Below, piece by piece: positions 21,477-34,760 of a stretch of 37,461 nucleotides of DNA. The position numbers and the translations under genes were made by a program. The notes below the pieces were generated by a model. The model worked only from the letters and a program-made list of their open reading frames with translations. It ran no database searches and had not been told where the DNA came from. The DNA comes from Actinomycetes bacterium (GTDB taxonomy: Bacteria; Actinomycetota; Coriobacteriia; Anaerosomatales; Anaerosomataceae): positions 1 to 37,461 of the forward strand of contig JAJFTE010000087.1 in NCBI GenBank assembly GCA_021373175.1. The letters run 5' to 3'. The first letter of the stretch is position 1. Each line of letters begins with the position of its first letter.

Positions 21477-21503
21477 TTGGCACTCTCGCCCTCCGAGTGC
21501 CAA
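21477..21503 (-). promoter_or_regulatory. CIRCE operator (HrcA site)
   Basis: A perfect 9-bp inverted repeat with a 9-nt spacer, TTGGCACTC-N9-GAGTGCCAA. The consensus CIRCE is TTAGCACTC-N9-GAGTGCTAA; here the third position is G with a matching C in the other arm, so symmetry is kept. It begins a few bases downstream of the predicted transcription start of groESL, the standard position for HrcA repression relieved by heat shock. Confidence 0.92.
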
Positions 21504-25309: not shown

Positions 25310-25340
25310 CCTTGCAGGAAACCGCTCGCACGCGGCGAAA
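25310..25340 (+). promoter_or_regulatory. Conserved leader motif, copy B (upstream of the 114-aa gene)
   Basis: CCTTGCAGGAAACC (25310-25323) matches all 14 bases of copy A at 34698-34711 on the - strand. It runs into a stem CCGC (25322-25325)/GCGG (25332-25335) with a 6-nt loop, then CGAAA. In copy A the stem is CCGT/ACGG, so the closing pair changed from U-A to C-G while pairing was kept. The motif ends 8 nt before AAGGAGGTGA. It could be a small RNA structure in the leader or, read as DNA, a promoter for an alternative sigma factor. I cannot match it to a known family. Confidence 0.5.
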
Positions 25341-25366: not shown

Positions 25367-25711
25367 ATGAACAGTAACCGACCTGACACCACCGATGAGG
25401 ACATCGGCCGCAGGGCGTTCCAGCTACGCAAGGAGAAAGCGACCGAGCGGGCACTCGACCGGCTGCGCCAGGGCCTGAAGGGCGACTGGGGCATGTTCAC
25501 CCAGAGCGACCTCGAGGATCTGTCGTGGATCCTCGGCGAACTCTGGGCATTCGAGAACCGGCTTGACTGGGAGGATCTCCACTTCAGTAAGCTCACCGCC
25601 GAGGACACCCAGAAGATCATCTCGCTCGGGCGTGCCCTTCAGGAAAACGCCCAGCACAGTGTTGAGACCCTCGAAACCGTCAGCGACATCGTCCGCGCGC
25701 GAAGCATCTGA
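25367..25711 (+). CDS. Hypothetical protein, 114 aa, helical and soluble
   Basis: I do not recognise this protein. It has a very strong Shine-Dalgarno sequence (AAGGAGGTGA at 25349-25358, 8 nt before the ATG), which decides the start over the longer open frame. It has no cysteine, no signal peptide and no membrane segment. It is rich in charged residues with a likely helical pattern (RRAFQLRKEKATERALDRL, then LEDLSWILGELWAFENRLDW and TVSDIVRARSI). It stands alone on the + strand between two - strand operons, divergent from the nitroreductase and convergent with the ATPase. Its leader carries the motif also found before the ATPase operon. Size and composition would suit a regulatory or adaptor protein, but no function is claimed. 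Confidence 0.8.
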   Translation: MNSNRPDTTDEDIGRRAFQLRKEKATERALDRLRQGLKGDWGMFTQSDLEDLSWILGELWAFENRLDWEDLHFSKLTAEDTQKIISLGRALQENAQHSVETLETVSDIVRARSI

Positions 25712-25912: not shown

Positions 25913-26560
25913 CTAATGCTGCGCCTCGGCCTTCCTGCGCTCGATCTTGCGCTTGACCTTCTTGAGCCTGAACAGGTCCTCGCGCGCGCGCTCGTCGAGC
26001 GACTGGCGGATGTAGGACACCTGTTCCCTCAGCGAGGGCACTGTGACCTGTTCAAGCGCGTTCACGCGCCGGTTGGTCTTCTGTATCTCTTCTCCGAGCC
26101 GCTTCAATCGAGTTTCGATATCCGCATACTCGATGATGACGTCCAAGATCCGCTCGAACTTGTCGGCCGTTTCATCGATTCGCGAGGACACGCTGGTGAT
26201 GGCGTAGCCTCGCGAGAACGACGAGCGAACCGGGCTCTCGCCTTTGGTCACGACCGGCACTGAAACGCCCATGATCTTCGTCCCGGTCATGTCGATCGAG
26301 ATCTCGCCCTTTGTGGCCATGGCCGCCGAGCGAACCGATACCACGCCGTCGACCGACTTCGCGATCGCGAGACTGTACTGCGCCTCGGACGTGGTGCGCT
26401 GCAGGTCGCTCGACAAACGAAGCGTCTCGTCCATGACGGACATGAACTCGATGAGCAGTGCGTCACGCTTTTGCTTCAGCAGCTCCATGCCCTGCTCGGC
26501 AAGCGTGATCTGCTGCTTGCGCTCCAACAACTCCGATCGAGTCGGACGTACTTCCTCCAT
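25913..26560 (-). CDS. ntpD: V/A-type ATPase subunit D (central stalk)
   Basis: Subunit D is the long coiled-coil shaft that turns inside the A3B3 head and links it to the membrane ring. The 215-aa product begins VRPTRSELLERKQQITLAEQ, continues with long alpha-helical heptads, and ends in the charged coil REDLFRLKKVKRKIERRKAE, all typical. GGAGGTGA sits directly before the ATG. It is the last gene of the nine-gene operon, 34 bp after subunit B, and is followed by the hairpin array. Confidence 0.93.
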   Translation of the reverse strand: MEEVRPTRSELLERKQQITLAEQGMELLKQKRDALLIEFMSVMDETLRLSSDLQRTTSEAQYSLAIAKSVDGVVSVRSAAMATKGEISIDMTGTKIMGVSVPVVTKGESPVRSSFSRGYAITSVSSRIDETADKFERILDVIIEYADIETRLKRLGEEIQKTNRRVNALEQVTVPSLREQVSYIRQSLDERAREDLFRLKKVKRKIERRKAEAQH

Positions 26561-26594: not shown

Positions 26595-28016
26595 CTACGC
26601 CTGTGTCGCGGCGTTCGCGCCGGCATTCGGGTGGTACTTGTCGATAAAGTCGCGCACGCGCTTAAGTTCGCTTATCGGAAGCTCCGACATGAGCTCCCAC
26701 GAAACGCGAAGCGTGTCCTCGATGGAACGGCCCGCTTCGCCCTGGCCGATGATCTGGCTCTCGAAGTCATCGGCGAAGTGCAGGTAGCGGCGGTCGGTGT
26801 CCGAGAGGGCCTCCTCGCCGACGATGGCGACGAGCCTGCGAAGATCGCGACCCTGGGCGTACGCGGCGTACAGCTGGTTTGCGACCGCACGATGGTCCTC
26901 GCGCGTCTTGCCCTCCCCGATGCCCAGGTTCATAAGCCGCGAGAGGCACGGCAAGACGTCGATCGGCGGATAGACGCCGCGACGATGCAGTTGCCGCGAC
27001 AGGACGATCTGGCCCTCGGTGATGTACCCGGTGAGGTCCGGAATGGGGTGCGTGATGTCGTCGTCAGGCATCGTCAGGATCGGAAGCTGCGTGACCGAGC
27101 CCTTGCGGCCCTTGATGCGGCCGGCCCGTTCGTAGATGGTCGACAGGTCGGTGTACATGTAGCCCGGATAGCCACGGCGGCCCGGGACCTCTTCGCGAGC
27201 GGTCGAGACCTCACGCAGCGCCTCGCAATAGTTCGTCATGTCCGAGAGAACCACCAGCACCTGCATGTCCTTCTCGAACGCCAGGTACTCGGCCACCGTG
27301 AGCGCGACTTTCGGGGTGAGCAGACGCTCGACCGTCGGGTCGTCAGCAAGGTTCATGAAGAACACGACTCGCTCGAGGGCGCCGGTGGTCTCGAACTGCT
27401 GCATGAAGTAGGCAGCCTCTCGGTTGGTGATGCCCATCGCGCCGAAGACGATCGCGAACTCTTCGCCCGATTTCACCCGCGCCTGGCGAATGATCTGTGC
27501 GGCAAGCTCGTTGGCTGGCAGGCCCGAACCGGAGAATATCGGGAGCTTCTGACCGCGAACGAGCGTGTTTAGGCCGTCGATGGCCGAGATGCCTGTTTCG
27601 ATGAAGTCAGCCGGCTGCTCGCGGCTGTACGGATTGATCGGCGAACCAGTGACGTCAAGGCGCTTCTCGGGGATGATCGGCGCTCCGCCGTCGATCGGCT
27701 TGCCGGTGCCTGCCAGGATGCGGCCGAGCAGGTCAGGAGAGACGTCGACCTTTGCGACCTCTTCAAGGAAGCGGATGCGCGTTGTGTCGACGTCGATGCC
27801 CTGCGTGCCTTCGAACACCTGGATGACGGCCGTGTCGCCCGAGACTTCAAGCACCTGACCGCTGCGCTCGCTGCCGTCCGGCGTGACTATGGCCACCATC
27901 TCGTTGTACGAGACATCGTGGACGTTCTCGACAAAGACGAGCGGGCCGGTGACGTACGAGACAGTCTGGTACTCCACTGACAAGAGCGAGCGTCCGATTG
28001 CAGCTTCCGCGGTCAA
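26595..28016 (-). CDS. ntpB: V/A-type ATPase subunit B (regulatory head subunit)
   Basis: The non-catalytic nucleotide-binding subunit alternating with A in the head. It is 473 aa from a TTG start at 28016, immediately after the A stop; GAGGTGAT inside the end of the A gene serves as ribosome site. A GTG 13 codons later (starting [13 protein letters not shown]) lies nearer the usual family start but has no Shine-Dalgarno sequence. Family traits: [20 protein letters not shown] in place of a working P-loop, [34 protein letters not shown] and the PCLSRLMN segment. Confidence 0.95.
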
Positions 28017-29771
28017 CTACATCACCTCGATTCCGGCGATCTCGTCCGAGATCTGCGCGACCATCTCCTGCATGCGGGCGATGGCGCGGTCGTGGTCCGT
28101 GGTCTTGAGTGTCGCGATCTCTTCGCGCATGGGCAATTGCATGATCTGCCTGAGTGAAACGCCCCGCGACATCGCCTGGGTGGCGGCATCGTAAAACGCG
28201 AGGATGGAACGAAGCAGCCAGTACGCCTTCTTCGGCGGACAGTACGCGTCCACGGGGTCGAATGCGAACTGCTGCAGGAAGTCCTCTCGGAGCATGCGCG
28301 CGACTTCGAGGATGATCTTCTCGGTCTCAGGCAGAGCGTCCGGGCCGACCAGCTGCACGATCTCCTGCAGCTCCGTCTCCTTCTGGAGCAGGAACATCGC
28401 GCGCTCGCGAACGTCCGCCCAATCGTGGGCTACCTCTTCCTCGAACCAGGGGCGAACCTGCCCGAGGAACAGCGTGTACGATTTGGTCCAGGAGATGGCT
28501 GGGAAGTGCCGGCGTTGCGCAAGCGGGGTGTCGAGGGCCCAGAACGCGCCGGTGACTCGAAGCGAGTTCTGCGTCATCGGCTCGGACATGTCGCCGCCAG
28601 GAGGCGAAACGGCGCCTACCATGGTAACCGACCCGACCCGCTCCTCACTGCCGAGGGATGCGCAGCGTCCCGACCGCTCGTAGAACGCCGCGAGACGGGT
28701 CGCGAGATACGCGGGATAGCCTTCCTCGCCTGGCATCTCCTCGAGTCGACCGGAGACCTCGCGGAGCGCCTCGCCCCAGCGAGAGGTGGAGTCGGCCATC
28801 ATCGCGACGTTGTACCCCATGTCGCGGTAGAACTCCGCCAGCGTCACACCTGTATAGATCGAGGCTTCGCGCGCGGCGACGGGCATGTTGGAGGTGTTCG
28901 CCACCAGTACGGTCCGGTCCATCAGTCTGGAACCAGTCCGCGGGTCTTCAAGCTCAGGGAACTCCTTGAGAACCTCGGTCATCTCGTTGCCACGCTCGCC
29001 GCAACCAACGTAGACAATGATATCCACGTCGGCCCACTTAGCCAGCGACTGCTGAGTGACCGTCTTGCCGGTCCCGAATCCGCCCGGGATGATGGCGTTG
29101 CCGCCGAGGGCGATTGGGAAGAACGTGTCGAGGATTCGCATGCCCGTCAGAAACGGGGTGGTCGGATCGAGCTTGCGAGCGTAGGGGCGACCTTGCCGTA
29201 CGGGCCACCACTGGGTCATGCGGACCTCCGTGGTGCCGTCGAGGACCGCGACGACCGTCTGCACGTTATACGATCCTGGAGCCACGATGTTCGTCACTCG
29301 GCCATGGACGCCTGGAGGCACCATCACCTTGTGGAGAACCGTCGGACCTTCTGGAACCGTGCCCACGACGTCGCCGCCGACAAGCTCCTGACCAACCTCG
29401 ACGGTAGGAGTGAACTCCCAAAGTCTCTCGTGATCGAGCGCGGGTACGGTGGTTCCGCGTGCGATGAAGTCGCTGCCCGTCTGGGCTGCGATCACCGGCA
29501 GCGGCCTTTGGATGCCGTCATAGATCGACGACAGCAGGCCAGGGCCCAGCTCAAGCATGAGCGGACCCTCCGTCGACTCGACCGGTTCTCCGACCTTCAG
29601 CCCCGAGGTGTCCTCATAGACCTGGATCGTCGCGTGCGTGCCTTCGAGCCGGATGACCTCGCCCATGAGGCCGGCAGAGCCGACCCTGACGACGTCATAC
29701 ATCTTGATGCCGATCATCCCGTCCGCTACAACGACCGGACCGGTGATCTTGGACAGCGTTCCGAGAATCAT
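28017..29771 (-). CDS. ntpA: V/A-type ATPase catalytic subunit A
   Basis: The catalytic head subunit, 584 aa. The P-loop [12 protein letters not shown] lies near residue 230, followed by [20 protein letters not shown] with the catalytic-site glutamate region, then [27 protein letters not shown], the hallmark of V/A-type A subunits. The extra non-homologous domain between residues 115 and 190 ([20 protein letters not shown]) distinguishes it from F-type beta. The start overlaps the F stop as TGATG, and the stop directly abuts the B start. Confidence 0.97.
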
Positions 29772-30103
29772 CAGCCTCGCCTCAGTGTGATGTCGAATCC
29801 GATTGCCCGTCGGATCAGGCGTGACAAGTACGCCCTGTGATCCTCATCCGTATGCAGCTTCTCGCGTATCGGAAGTGAGATCACGATTGGCCGGTACGTC
29901 GAGTTGATTTTCTGCTGCGTTCTTTCGTCGATATCGGCCATGAAGGCCTCGTTGACCGCGACGATTCCACTCGAGTCGTCGTCGACCAGTTCGTTCAGGC
30001 GCTTTCGCGCGTCGTCAGGCGAGTCGACAGTGATGACGTCAACACCCGCGAGCCGGAAACCATCGCCCGTGTCGGTATCGGTGAGTACGACGAGCTTATA
30101 CAA
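29771..30103 (-). CDS. ntpG: V/A-type ATPase subunit F
   Basis: A small central-stalk subunit (110 aa; called NtpG in Enterococcus, AtpF in archaeal naming) that binds D and can regulate the rotor. Seen are [20 protein letters not shown], a Rossmann-like alpha/beta start, [20 protein letters not shown] and [11 protein letters not shown] near the C-terminus. It begins 8 bp before the end of C and ends in a TGATG overlap with A. Family assignment rests on position and these motifs together. Confidence 0.9.
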
Positions 30104-31187
30104 CGATGAGCTCCTCCCTCATCCGCTCCATGGGCATGTCTACCGAGACACCCTTGACGATGATGCGCAGGTTGGTGACTTCGTTGGACTTCATCCACAG
30201 GTAGCTGATGATGATCCCGACACCAAGCGGATCCCCTCGGCCCGCCGCGAACGCCCGGCGCATAAGGTAATCCTCCAACGCACGCTCGAAGACCGACACC
30301 GATCCGGACTCGATGTACTTGATCGCGACATCCTCCAGGGGGCGCCCGTACGGGGTCCGCTTGAGCCGGTCGTACACCTCGTCCACATCGGACATGCCCG
30401 CCAGGTCGCCGAACAGCCCTTCGGTCACATACATGCCTCCCGGCAAGAAGAACCTGAGGGCATCCTGGTCACCGAGGTCCGCGTTGAGCAACCGCAAACA
30501 GGTGAGCAGGTCAATCGTATCGATCTGGGTGCCAAGGAACCGATGAGCGAGCTGCTGGTTCACACCGCGACCCTTAAGGCGTTTCGTCGCCCACTCCATG
30601 TAGTACTTGTCGAGTGCGAGCTCAAGAACCGCGAGGTTCCCGCTCTCGATGTACTCGGGCATCGCCGCACGAAGCGGCACCGCGAACGGCAGCTTCCACG
30701 TCGCGAGCGTGTCCACCACACCCTTCACATTCTGCTGACGCGCGAGCTCATCGAGGTCGATCTGTGTCAGCTGCGCCACGGCGATCATGCTATCCACGAT
30801 CTCTTCAGCCGACAGGTTCATGTGACGGCCACGGATGACCGTCTTGATGTTGAACAGGTCCCATCTGCCGAGCAGCGCACCGAGCATCGCAAGCGACTCG
30901 TCGTTCACGAGCGAGAGCACCGTGCGGAACGTGCGGACCATGTTGTCCTTGAGGGCCAGGTCGATCTGTCCGGCGGTGTGACCGTGCAGCAACCGCTCCT
31001 CAAGATCTGGAGCGTACTCCGTCTCCATGAGACTCGTGATGATCCCGCCCAGGTCCTTAGCCTGCATCAGGCCGTCCAGGAACGACTGCTTCAGCAGTCG
31101 CGAACGCATACCCCGGACACGAGCGTTGGAGTAGCCGTAGTCCTTCTTGGACGCGCCCACACGCCTCATGGTCGTCGTGCTGCTCAT
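30096..31187 (-). CDS. ntpC: V/A-type ATPase subunit C (ring-to-stalk connector, d-like)
   Basis: Subunit C is the funnel-shaped socket (equivalent to eukaryotic subunit d) joining the central stalk to the membrane ring. The 363-aa protein is mostly helical; DYGYSNARVRGMRSRLLKQS at the N-terminus and the repeated helical segments with YIESGN and KYIESGSVSVFERALEDYL fit the AC39 family. Its ATG overlaps the E stop (ATGA). The second Met at residue 7 is a possible start, but the coupled one is preferred. Confidence 0.92.
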   Translation of the reverse strand: MSSTTTMRRVGASKKDYGYSNARVRGMRSRLLKQSFLDGLMQAKDLGGIITSLMETEYAPDLEERLLHGHTAGQIDLALKDNMVRTFRTVLSLVNDESLAMLGALLGRWDLFNIKTVIRGRHMNLSAEEIVDSMIAVAQLTQIDLDELARQQNVKGVVDTLATWKLPFAVPLRAAMPEYIESGNLAVLELALDKYYMEWATKRLKGRGVNQQLAHRFLGTQIDTIDLLTCLRLLNADLGDQDALRFFLPGGMYVTEGLFGDLAGMSDVDEVYDRLKRTPYGRPLEDVAIKYIESGSVSVFERALEDYLMRRAFAAGRGDPLGVGIIISYLWMKSNEVTNLRIIVKGVSVDMPMERMREELIVV

Positions 31188-31762
31188 TGGTTCAGAATCT
31201 CCGCCACGCGAGCCTGCGCGAGCGTACGTACCTTTGCGGTTCTCGACTCGAACGTGTTGCGGCGAGTGATCCTCCCGCCGTGCGTGGTGACTGTCAATCC
31301 GCCAACGAACTCAGCATCCGGGTGCACCGTGCAGCGGGCGCCAAGCGTCGCGACCACCTTCTCAGCCAGCGCAGCGTCGGCGGGATCCACGTGGACATCG
31401 CAGTCGCCGCCGATGCCGGTGAGGCTCTCCTTGGCGAGTGCTGTCAACACCGTCTCATACGCTGCCGTGCCTCGCAGCTTCCCAAGCTTGACGAGCGCGT
31501 CAGCGAAGACCTGGTCGATGGCGCGGTCGCGCACACCAGCAAGCGCTCTCTTGTTCTCGATCCGCGCGGCGTTGAGCGTCTTGCCCGCCTTCGCCTTCAC
31601 GAGCTCCTCGACGGCGGCAAGCTTCTGCGCCTTGATGCGGTCCGCCTCACGGCGGGCCTCCGCCTTGATGGAAGCAGCCTGCGCTTCTGCCACCCTGAGG
31701 ATCTCGCTGCACTCCGCGTCAGCTTGTTCTTCCAAAGCTCGGAAGATGTCCTCTATCGCCAT
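31184..31762 (-). CDS. ntpE: V/A-type ATPase subunit E (peripheral stalk)
   Basis: A 192-aa peripheral-stalk protein pairing with the H/G-type subunit. The first 100 residues form a charged coiled coil (EEQADAECSEILRVAEAQAA and further repeats rich in Ala/Glu/Lys), followed by a compact C-terminal domain containing HPDAEFVGGLTVTTHGGRI, which matches the GGL(V/T)...DGR pattern of E subunits. It starts 50 bp after K and overlaps C by ATGA. Confidence 0.9.
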   Translation of the reverse strand: MAIEDIFRALEEQADAECSEILRVAEAQAASIKAEARREADRIKAQKLAAVEELVKAKAGKTLNAARIENKRALAGVRDRAIDQVFADALVKLGKLRGTAAYETVLTALAKESLTGIGGDCDVHVDPADAALAEKVVATLGARCTVHPDAEFVGGLTVTTHGGRITRRNTFESRTAKVRTLAQARVAEILNQ

Positions 31763-31811: not shown

Positions 31812-32138
31812 CTACGCGGCGTTGATCATGAAGGCGATAACGAAGCCAAGAAGGACGATGATCTCTGGCAGTGCCTGCAGAACGATGATGTACGTGGCAG
31901 CCTCGGGACGCTCGGCCAACGTGCCGGCGCCTGCGGAGCCGATCTTCGCCTGCGCGTAGCCGGCGCTTAAGGCCGATACGCTCATAGCGATCGCGGCAGC
32001 CACAGCCTTGCCGATGGTCGCGCGGTAGTCTGGGGCGGCCGCAGGCGCGGAACCCTGTGCCAGAGCCATAGCCGGGACGACCATTGCAGTGACGAATGCA
32101 CTGCCGAACACCATCTTTGCGAGCTTGTTCGTGATCAT
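31812..32138 (-). CDS. ntpK: V/A-type ATPase subunit K (proteolipid ring)
   Basis: The ion-carrying ring subunit. Only 108 aa: an N-terminal hydrophobic segment with AMALAQG that resembles a cleavable signal, then one helical hairpin (helix 1 about residues 43-65, helix 2 about 82-106). Helix 2 carries a single membrane carboxylate, E92, in LQALPEIIVLLGF, with Q88 one turn before. Enterococcus-type NtpK is a duplicated four-helix protein, so this ring keeps one carboxylate per hairpin, as in F-type and many archaeal rings. Ion choice (H+ or Na+) cannot be settled by eye. GGAGGTGA precedes the ATG, which overlaps the I stop. Confidence 0.92.
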   Translation of the reverse strand: MITNKLAKMVFGSAFVTAMVVPAMALAQGSAPAAAPDYRATIGKAVAAAIAMSVSALSAGYAQAKIGSAGAGTLAERPEAATYIIVLQALPEIIVLLGFVIAFMINAA

Positions 32139-34108
32139 GCGCTCTTTTCACCTCCGGTTTTGTGGAACGGCTTGTACTGCTCCTTGCCTGCCTCGTAAAA
32201 CTTCCCGAAGAACTCCAGGAAGTTAAGACGCAACGCGTGGATGTTCGGGCTGAACGATGAGAGCATGATGTTCAGGCTGTGAAGGACGATGCCGATCAGT
32301 CCGCCAGCAAGCCATCCCATCTGAATAACAAGAGCATTGACCGCATCGGCGAAGATAGCGCCTGCAACGCCGACAGCCATGATTCGGATGTAGCTTGCGA
32401 TGTGGGAGACCGTCTCAAGCGTTTCGACGGCACCCATGATCGACCCGTACCGTACGGCCACGAGAATGCCGGCGAGCAGCACCAGCGCACCGACGATCTG
32501 GATGACCGGGCCGAGCGGCCCCTGCGCGACGGCGGGCAGCATGGCCATACCGAGAATGCCGGCACCCGCAATGAACCCGAGCAGGCCGCCCTTCATCTTC
32601 GCGTGCTTCAGCTGCTTGGTCCTGACGCCGTTCATCACACCGAGCACCAGGCCGTAGACGATCTGGACGACCCCGACGCCGATCGCGATACCGATCAGCG
32701 GAACGATCAGTTCTGTTCGCTTGAACGGCAGCACGATGCCAAAGACATTGATGGGCCTGATCAGGTGGAGCAGCTCAAGCGTGTTCCCGAAGAACTCGCC
32801 GTAGAAGAAGCCGACGATAATGGCCATGGTCGCCGCAGGCCCGAGGATCGAGGTCGCGATCTGGATGAAGTCCTTGTCTTTGAACCTGTTCCTCAGCCAC
32901 AGCACCAGGGTGAGCATGACGAGGCCGTAGCCGATGTCACCTACGATGAGGCCGAAGATCAGTGGGTAGAAGACCGCGACGATGGTGGTGGGGTCGATCG
33001 TGCCGTACTTCGGCAGACCGCCGCCGAGCAGACCGAGCAGGTTCTGATACGGCTCGACTATCTTGGCGTTCTTCAGCGCCACCGGGACCTCTTCATACTC
33101 GTGCTCATCGAGTTCCACCTGGTTGACGATAACGTCAGTGCCGAAGTGCTCGACGATCGTCTGACGCAGGTTCTTGACGGCCGCGACCGGCAACCAGCCG
33201 GTGATCACGAACGCGTACTCCGTTTGCCCGAACTTCGGGATCGCGCTGATCTCCTCGACCTTGTCCGAGAGGACCTCCTGGATGGTCGAGAGCCTCACGT
33301 ACCACTTAACCGACATATCGTGCAGCTCGTTACGAATCTCCTCGAGACGCTTTGGAAGCGTTTCGCGACGCTCTTTGAGATGGTCGTATGCGACATCGAA
33401 CGGCATGTCCTGAAATTCGGAGGGCAGACGGATCTGGTTCACGTTCTCCATCGCAAGGAACTTGTGCACACCGTCCGAGAACTTGCGCGCGAACACCACG
33501 ATCACTGCGGTCGTATCTTCATCGACGTCGGTAGAAACGATCTCGCACTGACTCTTGGTGATCTCGTCGAGTTCCTTCTTGAGCTCTTCAAGCGCGCCCT
33601 TATACCGGCGCTCAACAAGCAGGGCCACCGAGTCATACGTCCCGGTCGTCACGATCTGCTTGGCGAGCGGCTGGATCTTGTGGAGGATAGGCTCATAGCG
33701 AGCGAGGAGTGCGAGTTCCGCTTCCATCGACGACTGAGCTTGCGCCAGGTTCGAGGTGCGATCCTCCACCTGCTCGATGACCTCGGTCACTTCCTGCGCA
33801 AGCTCTCGGCTGTCCATGCTCCATAGCTGAAGATACTGCTTCTGCCGTTCGACCTCGTCGACAGCCCCAGACGGGAGATGCAGCGCCTTGACGATCGAGC
33901 GCAGACGCAGGAGAAGATCCTCCATACGCTCCTTCTCGGCTGCCTGGTTCTCGACGACTTCCATCTGGTCGAGCGGGATCTCGCCTGTGCTGATCTTCTT
34001 CGAGAGGTCTTCGATGTGCAGCGTCCCGATGTCATGCAGCAAGCTCACGACATCATAGAAGCGGTTCTTCGGCCCGATCATCTCGACCTTGGCCATTGGG
34101 ACCAACAT
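32135..34108 (-). CDS. ntpI: V/A-type ATPase subunit I (membrane stator, a-like)
   Basis: The 657-aa stator that forms the ion half-channels. The N-terminal half is cytoplasmic coiled coil and two globular lobes (LHDIGTLHIEDLSKK, AFVITGWLPVAAVKNLRQT). The C-terminal half begins with YGTIDPTTIVAVFYPLIFGL and has seven to eight transmembrane helices. The essential arginine is in the SYIRIMAVGVAGAIFADAVN segment. The ATG at 34108 is chosen over the Met at residue 5 because GGGGAGGG precedes it at suitable distance. It ends in an ATGA overlap with K. Confidence 0.95.
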   Translation of the reverse strand: MLVPMAKVEMIGPKNRFYDVVSLLHDIGTLHIEDLSKKISTGEIPLDQMEVVENQAAEKERMEDLLLRLRSIVKALHLPSGAVDEVERQKQYLQLWSMDSRELAQEVTEVIEQVEDRTSNLAQAQSSMEAELALLARYEPILHKIQPLAKQIVTTGTYDSVALLVERRYKGALEELKKELDEITKSQCEIVSTDVDEDTTAVIVVFARKFSDGVHKFLAMENVNQIRLPSEFQDMPFDVAYDHLKERRETLPKRLEEIRNELHDMSVKWYVRLSTIQEVLSDKVEEISAIPKFGQTEYAFVITGWLPVAAVKNLRQTIVEHFGTDVIVNQVELDEHEYEEVPVALKNAKIVEPYQNLLGLLGGGLPKYGTIDPTTIVAVFYPLIFGLIVGDIGYGLVMLTLVLWLRNRFKDKDFIQIATSILGPAATMAIIVGFFYGEFFGNTLELLHLIRPINVFGIVLPFKRTELIVPLIGIAIGVGVVQIVYGLVLGVMNGVRTKQLKHAKMKGGLLGFIAGAGILGMAMLPAVAQGPLGPVIQIVGALVLLAGILVAVRYGSIMGAVETLETVSHIASYIRIMAVGVAGAIFADAVNALVIQMGWLAGGLIGIVLHSLNIMLSSFSPNIHALRLNFLEFFGKFYEAGKEQYKPFHKTGGEKSA

Positions 34109-34156: not shown

Positions 34157-34525
34157 TCAGACCGAGGTCACCATGGACACGACCGCGTCCACCGCCTCGG
34201 AGTGCCGCTTATCCAACCGATTCTTGAGAGCGTCGGCATCGACTGTGATCTGCTCGCGCAGCTTGGCCGCCTCACTCTCCGCTCCGGCGATCGACGACTC
34301 CGCATACAGCTTGGCCGCCTTGTCAGCATCCGTCTCGGCGGTGCGAAGCATGTCGGTGGCCGCCCGGCGCGCGTCGGCCACGATCTTCTCGGATTGGGTC
34401 TTCGCTGCAAGGACGCGACCGGAGATCTCGATCTCCTTCTCGCGAATCTGATACAGTGGCGAGTTTGCGTCCTTGTTGACCACGTCCTGATGGAATCGAA
34501 TCTCCTCCAGAACCTTCTCGTCCAT
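34157..34525 (-). CDS. ntpF: V/A-type ATPase subunit H (peripheral stalk, G/F-like)
   Basis: First gene of the ATPase operon; 122 aa of nearly continuous charged coiled coil (KEIEISGRVLAAKTQSEKIV, then ADARRAATDMLRTAETDADK and KLREQITVDADALKNRL), as in the H (NtpF/AhaH) subunit that pairs with E in the peripheral stalk. AAGGAG at 6 nt decides the ATG at 34525. The frame is open further upstream, but those residues are basic and unlike the family. Its position just before I is the classic NtpF-I-K-E-C-G-A-B-D order. Confidence 0.85.
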   Translation of the reverse strand: MDEKVLEEIRFHQDVVNKDANSPLYQIREKEIEISGRVLAAKTQSEKIVADARRAATDMLRTAETDADKAAKLYAESSIAGAESEAAKLREQITVDADALKNRLDKRHSEAVDAVVSMVTSV

Positions 34526-34760
34526 GGACCTCTCCTTCATCCGGTGCTCTTGCAAGTCCGATCCGGACGCCGTTTCGGAATCGATCAGGACCGCTGGTGA
34601 CCGGCACGGCTCGTGACGGTCTTGCCTATCCACACGAACCAACGACGCTCGACGTCTTCGCATCGGTGATAGTTGGCTTTTTCGCCGTAGGCTGACGGGT
34701 TTCCTGCAAGGAAACGCGAATTTTGTGGGAGAACCGCGTCGTTGATCTCCCCCGAAGGCT
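34526..34760 (-). promoter_or_regulatory. Leader region of the ATPase operon
   Basis: The 235 bp between alr and the H subunit hold no convincing gene. No good sigma-A promoter could be picked. The clearest feature is copy A of the conserved motif near its upstream end. GTTTCC/GGAAAC (34699-34704 and 34710-34715) could pair as a 6-bp hairpin that would compete with the stem of the motif. The long leader ahead of a costly operon suggests regulation at RNA level, which is inference. Confidence 0.4.
34680..34711 (-). promoter_or_regulatory. Conserved leader motif, copy A (upstream of the ATPase operon)
   Basis: On the - strand, CCTTGCAGGAAACC begins at 34711 and is identical over 14 bases to copy B at 25310. 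Then comes a stem CCGT (34698-34695)/ACGG (34688-34685) with loop CAGCCT, followed by CGAAA (34684-34680). Copy B has CCGC/GCGG and the same CGAAA. The orientation matches the downstream operon, about 155 nt before its first ATG. Its CCCGTCAGCC part recalls the 3' side of c-di-AMP (ydaO-type) riboswitches, but the other required blocks of that class are missing. Confidence 0.5.

Follow-up and report, generated by a model that had tools for sequence, protein, structure and literature searches.

A probable SigH-type promoter upstream of the A/V-ATPase operon and of a gene encoding a 114-aa protein in Anaerosomatales

The A/V-ATPase operon and the gene of a conserved 114-aa protein from a genome of the actinobacterial order Anaerosomatales (class Coriobacteriia) are preceded by two copies of the same bipartite element, GCAGGA and GGCGAA separated by a gap of 14-15 bp. 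Judging from its sequence, spacing, position and conservation, each copy is very probably a promoter recognised by the SigH (Spo0H) orthologue of this genome. Promoters of this kind are known, and we infer that the new part is an energy-conservation regulon without sporulation.

The element and the genes that it precedes

The window, which is the whole stretch of DNA analysed (37,461 nucleotides; contig JAJFTE010000087.1, assembly GCA_021373175.1), contains a nine-gene A/V-ATPase operon with the subunit order G/H-like, I, K, E, C, F, A, B, D. This operon is convergent with the 114-aa gene, and the ten genes are the following:

34157..34525, - strand: stalk subunit (G/H-like), 122 aa, first ATPase gene (weak Pfam V-ATPase_G_2 match, E 0.003; conserved in the order)
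32135..34108, - strand: A/V-ATPase subunit I (NF004430, E 4.4e-102, below the curated cut-off)
31812..32138, - strand: A/V-ATPase subunit K, proteolipid (PF00137)
31184..31762, - strand: A/V-ATPase subunit E (PF01991)
30096..31187, - strand: A/V-ATPase subunit C (PF01992)
29771..30103, - strand: A/V-ATPase subunit F (PF01990)
28017..29771, - strand: A/V-ATPase subunit A (NF003220)
26595..28016, - strand: A/V-ATPase subunit B (NF003235)
25913..26560, - strand: A/V-ATPase subunit D, convergent with the 114-aa gene (TIGR00309)
25367..25711, + strand: 114-aa gene, encoding a conserved protein (present in 55 of 61 genomes from the order)

The 114-aa protein is predicted to be all-helical (mean pLDDT 88); it matches no Pfam or NCBIfam family, and its predicted model has no PDB fold match at E <= 0.001.

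Two further features of the window were recorded. Just upstream of the ATPase ribosome-binding site, at 34526-34600(-), the block GATCGG(A/G)C(C/T)(T/C)GCAA is kept in nine genomes of the family. It could form a CCGATC/GATCGG hairpin, in which no pair shows a two-sided compensatory change, and a leader RNA at this place is possible but unsupported. Besides, a CIRCE-like inverted repeat (GGCACTC-N9-GAGTGCC, 21480-21503), the usual HrcA operator, is located upstream of groES-groEL.

The initial annotation of this DNA had described 14 identical nucleotides at 34711(-) and 25310(+), followed at similar spacing by a second block (CGAAA), both copies being intergenic and pointing toward a gene. All of this was confirmed: CCTTGCAGGAAACC occurs exactly at 25310-25323(+) and 34698-34711(-), with no other copy in the genome, and after a short unrelated stretch each 14-mer is followed by GGCGAA, at 25334-25339(+) and 34681-34686(-). 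The copy at 25310(+) is aimed at the 114-aa gene and has a divergent nitroreductase gene on its other side, and the copy at 34711(-) lies between an alanine racemase gene and the first ATPase gene and is aimed at the operon. The boxes of the two predicted promoters are:

34702..34707, - strand: -35 element GCAGGA, ATPase operon (near-invariant in the order; GAAGGA in a few genomes)
34681..34686, - strand: -10 element GGCGAA, ATPase operon (15-bp gap to GCAGGA)
25314..25319, + strand: -35 element GCAGGA, 114-aa gene (conserved in relatives)
25334..25339, + strand: -10 element GGCGAA, 114-aa gene (14-bp gap to GCAGGA)

The distance from GGCGAA to the start codon is 27 bp at the 114-aa gene (25367) and 155 bp at the ATPase operon (34525).

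Searches of the 2.15-Mb genome found two exact copies of the 12-mer CCTTGCAGGAAA, both in the window, and two exact sites of GCAGGA-N14/15-GGCGAA, which are the same two. At one mismatch CCTTGCAGGAAA has 5 sites in the genome, compared with 7 for a reversed control. The 12-mer by itself is therefore not rare once a mismatch is permitted, and the case against chance, which the initial annotation had based on the 14-base match and the similarly spaced second block, rests instead on conservation in relatives.

Conservation in related genomes

The upstream regions, oriented by strand, were taken from a set of 61 genomes, in which the 114-aa protein was matched in 55 and the ATPase stalk subunit in 55. 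Across the relatives, GCAGGA and GGCGAA recur at both genes, always 14 or 15 bp apart. At least 10 of the 12 positions are matched upstream of the ATPase operon in 47 of 50 genomes and upstream of the 114-aa gene in 38 of 50 (order-level genomes included), it being understood that these related genomes are not independent of each other. At least 11 of 12 positions are matched in 50 of 59 genuine upstream regions; in the background, this threshold is reached by 0.25% of the shuffles and by 2 of the 746 windows taken upstream of other ORFs.

Among the well-matched copies the gaps found are 14 or 15 only, with 13-16 allowed. The A, G, G and A of the first box and the G, A and A of the second one are essentially invariant, and the bases between the boxes vary freely; in the GGCGAA box the second base is variable around a near-invariant G-C-GAA core. 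The element recurs in many of the order's families. The exact 14-mer string is kept only near genus level, whereas the two boxes are kept much further. The same 14-mer was tried as a genome-wide family and rejected, since this genome has only the two copies and the counts in relatives are close to those of the control. A diverged form of the element (AAAGGA, CAAGGA) precedes the 114-aa gene in around a quarter of the genomes, mainly from other families. A relaxed pattern gave 80 sites in 15 genomes against 20 for the reversed pattern, which represents a mixture of real and chance sites, and several of its matches located inside long ORFs were set aside.

The search of related Coriobacteriia, suggested in the initial annotation, has in this way found further copies of the bipartite element upstream of homologous genes, and the idea of a shared regulatory element linking the ATPase operon with the 114-aa gene is borne out by its conservation at both genes.

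Promoter, RNA leader or regulator site

A structured cis-acting RNA leader, in which the 14-mer, a 4-bp hairpin and CGAAA would control both genes, was the reading originally preferred. The stem can indeed be drawn in the two window copies, with a compensatory difference between them. However, pairing is seen in 98 of the 232 stem cells from 58 homologous sites, compared with 100.1 in shuffled spacers, and the spacer varies in sequence and length while both flanking hexamers are near-invariant. The comparison with Rfam, also proposed at that time, found no match in the window at gathering thresholds and none in the ATPase leader even at E 10. The position of the element argues in the same direction. 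In most relatives, 21-34 bp separate the end of the -10 hexamer from the start codon of the 114-aa gene (21-28 bp in nearly all copies from the family of the window's genome and 33 in one), a stretch that includes the ribosome-binding site, and there is no room for a promoter between the element and this start codon. The RNA would therefore begin downstream of the element, and the simplest view of the element at the 114-aa gene is that it is the promoter itself and lies outside the message. A base-paired leader made of these sequences is considered extremely unlikely.

The alternative-sigma promoter, mentioned in the initial annotation as a second option, agrees with the data much better, as boxes, spacing and position largely match those of SigH promoters. 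The SigH consensus has been given as RNAGGAWWW for the -35 region and RNNGAATWW for the -10 region (PMC8510167). The -35 sequence is matched by the near-invariant GCAGGA, and both window copies carry GCAGGAAAC, in which the last W is not matched. In the -10 region nearly all copies agree with RNNGAA; the next base is A, C or T, so the T of the Firmicutes GAAT is not conserved. The two 9-mers of SigH promoters are separated by 11-12 bp, and this corresponds to the 14-15 bp seen here from GGA to the -10 hexamer. The spacing had been regarded as too short for a promoter; this doubt falls away because the elements are now read as GCAGGA and GGCGAA at SigH spacing. A promoter apparently kept across many families with a free spacer would be hard to explain without a sigma factor.

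Other promoter classes were also considered and rejected. A housekeeping promoter was discarded, no TTGACA/TATAAT-like sigma-70 boxes being found upstream of the ATPase operon or of the 114-aa gene, and the sigma-54 pattern (GG-N10-GC) fits window copy 2 but fails for window copy 1.

Two short conserved boxes at fixed spacing would also fit a dimeric regulator, that is, a conventional activator or repressor with a bipartite site at both genes, and window copy 1 contains the dyad GTTTCC-TTGCA-GGAAAC. Nevertheless, this dyad is absent from most relatives, where the upstream bases vary, the boxes are asymmetric and the 21-34 bp that precede the 114-aa gene hold no separate downstream promoter; moreover, the boxes largely match a known sigma consensus and that sigma factor is present. 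A site of this type seems very unlikely. The promoter could, on the other hand, belong to another alternative sigma factor (ECF-like or sigma-B-like), as there are further sigma-family matches in each genome and SigH is structurally close to the ECF factors. ECF promoters have a GGAAC-type -35 region, a spacing of about 16-17 bp and a GTC/CGTC-type -10 region, and this pattern does not fit GCAGGA-N14/15-GGCGAA, whereas SigH fits the spacing and, the base after GAA aside, both boxes, and has the same taxonomic range. A sigma factor other than SigH is regarded as very unlikely.

If the element is a SigH promoter, RNA polymerase loaded with SigH would bind GCAGGA and GGCGAA and would start transcription a few bases downstream of GGCGAA. 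The transcript of the A/V-ATPase operon would then have about 150 nt of 5' leader, and that of the 114-aa gene a very short one, comprising little beyond the ribosome-binding site. Both convergent units, and with them the ATPase and the 114-aa protein, would be co-expressed by SigH, presumably in response to an inducing signal.

SigH and its candidate targets in Anaerosomatales

The SigH orthologue (G000:C31:975-1622) reaches 284.5 bits with the NF006148 equivalog (cut-off 208) and 277.6 bits with TIGR02859, slightly under the cut-off of 294.8, and its best PDB match is 3mzy, a SigH. The gene adjoins yacP (PF05991) and the end of what its translation suggests to be a TrmH/RlmB-type methyltransferase gene; this TrmH/RlmB-yacP-sigH layout is that of Bacillus. 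For Firmicutes, the synteny of sigH loci is reported to be conserved (PMC3364868). The predicted DNA-reading segments of SigH are conserved within the order.

Among 149 sampled genomes, SigH exceeds the NF006148 cut-off in 62 of 68 from the order and in 0 of 81 from the rest of the class. The stalk subunit of the ATPase is likewise limited to the order, with marginal matches only outside it. The two SigH-less members of the order with 89-99% completeness and low contamination, G031 and G040, have neither the stalk subunit nor the 114-aa gene. In three others (G042, G116 and G127) SigH is present and the stalk subunit gene was not detected, and in G026, a fragmented assembly with 7% contamination, the ATPase is present and SigH was not detected. 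Taken over the order as a whole, the co-distribution of SigH and the ATPase amounts in essence to a single evolutionary event.

None of the 61 genomes has Spo0A, the Bacillus subtilis control being positive. Cultured Anaerosomatales are non-spore-forming and have A/V-type ATPases beside the F-type enzyme, as well as 17-18 multiheme cytochromes (PMC9686372). The A/V-type ATPase operons of Anaerosoma tenue and Parvivirga hydrogeniphila, described in that work, encode the same enzyme in the same order, and a term search of the article found no mention of sigma factors. No report on SigH or SigH promoters in Anaerosomatales was found in the literature consulted, which mostly leaves aside subscription journals.

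Two more genes seem to be served by SigH in relatives, one encoding a multiheme cytochrome and the other being a paralogue of the 114-aa gene. The same element precedes the cytochrome gene in 15 of 17 members of the family, 107-166 bp before the aligned start of the conserved region, and the protein is a membrane-anchored multiheme cytochrome (Cytochrome_C7/c3 families). A weaker element, typically N-CAGGR-N14-NNCGAA, is found before many paralogues of the 114-aa gene. This paralogue (loci L194-L213, L140 and L143 in relatives) was not found in the window's assembly; in many genomes it adjoins another multiheme cytochrome gene, often divergently. The 114-aa family thus has one copy associated with the ATPase and another associated with cytochromes.

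Some observations on other loci are also worth recording. The loci of the multiheme cytochrome with the SigH-like element (L276-L288) lie about 22-24 kb from sigH in many family genomes. A SigH-like GCAGG(A/G)-N14-GNCGAA sequence is located about 52 bp before ndk in several family genomes and is missing in others (G000:C135:29952-29978, locus L138, and also L254-L271). The block with which this sequence overlaps looks like a housekeeping promoter as well, which leaves ndk as no more than a possible further target. At L151 (G054:C53) two back-to-back SigH-like elements, at about 1227(+) and 1303(-), share the intergenic region that separates an ABC transporter ATPase gene from a gene for a membrane protein.

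SigH is the gateway to sporulation and competence in Firmicutes. The promoters proposed here resemble those of SigH (Spo0H) from Bacillus and other Firmicutes in the -35 box, much of the -10 box, the spacing, the place just upstream of the start codon and the orthologous sigma factor, but they have a GC-rich -10 box, GGCGAA, with a free base after GAA instead of T. The putative targets are different as well, namely the A/V-ATPase operon, a protein predicted to be helical and multiheme cytochromes, in non-sporulating hosts without Spo0A. Lactobacillus sakei SigH and streptococcal ComX are comparable cases, in which a SigH orthologue or relative has been kept without sporulation and with other targets (PMC3364868). 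Those targets are competence genes, whereas the putative ones in Anaerosomatales concern energy conservation.

It is a serious, if tentative, possibility that SigH in Anaerosomatales acts as the switch of an energy-conservation regulon, made up of the A/V-ATPase, multiheme cytochromes and the two apparently helical proteins found next to them, rather than as a sporulation or competence factor, and this role could be older than that in sporulation. If this is true, it would reveal a function of SigH where sporulation is absent, in a non-sporulating actinobacterial order, through a promoter prediction that is specific to the base pair. The 114-aa family, previously without annotation, would gain a context from its predicted co-expression with the A/V-ATPase and from its other copy beside multiheme cytochromes. 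It would also point to joint control of an alternative ATPase, either ATP-making or ion-pumping, and of electron-transfer proteins in these little-studied subsurface anaerobes.
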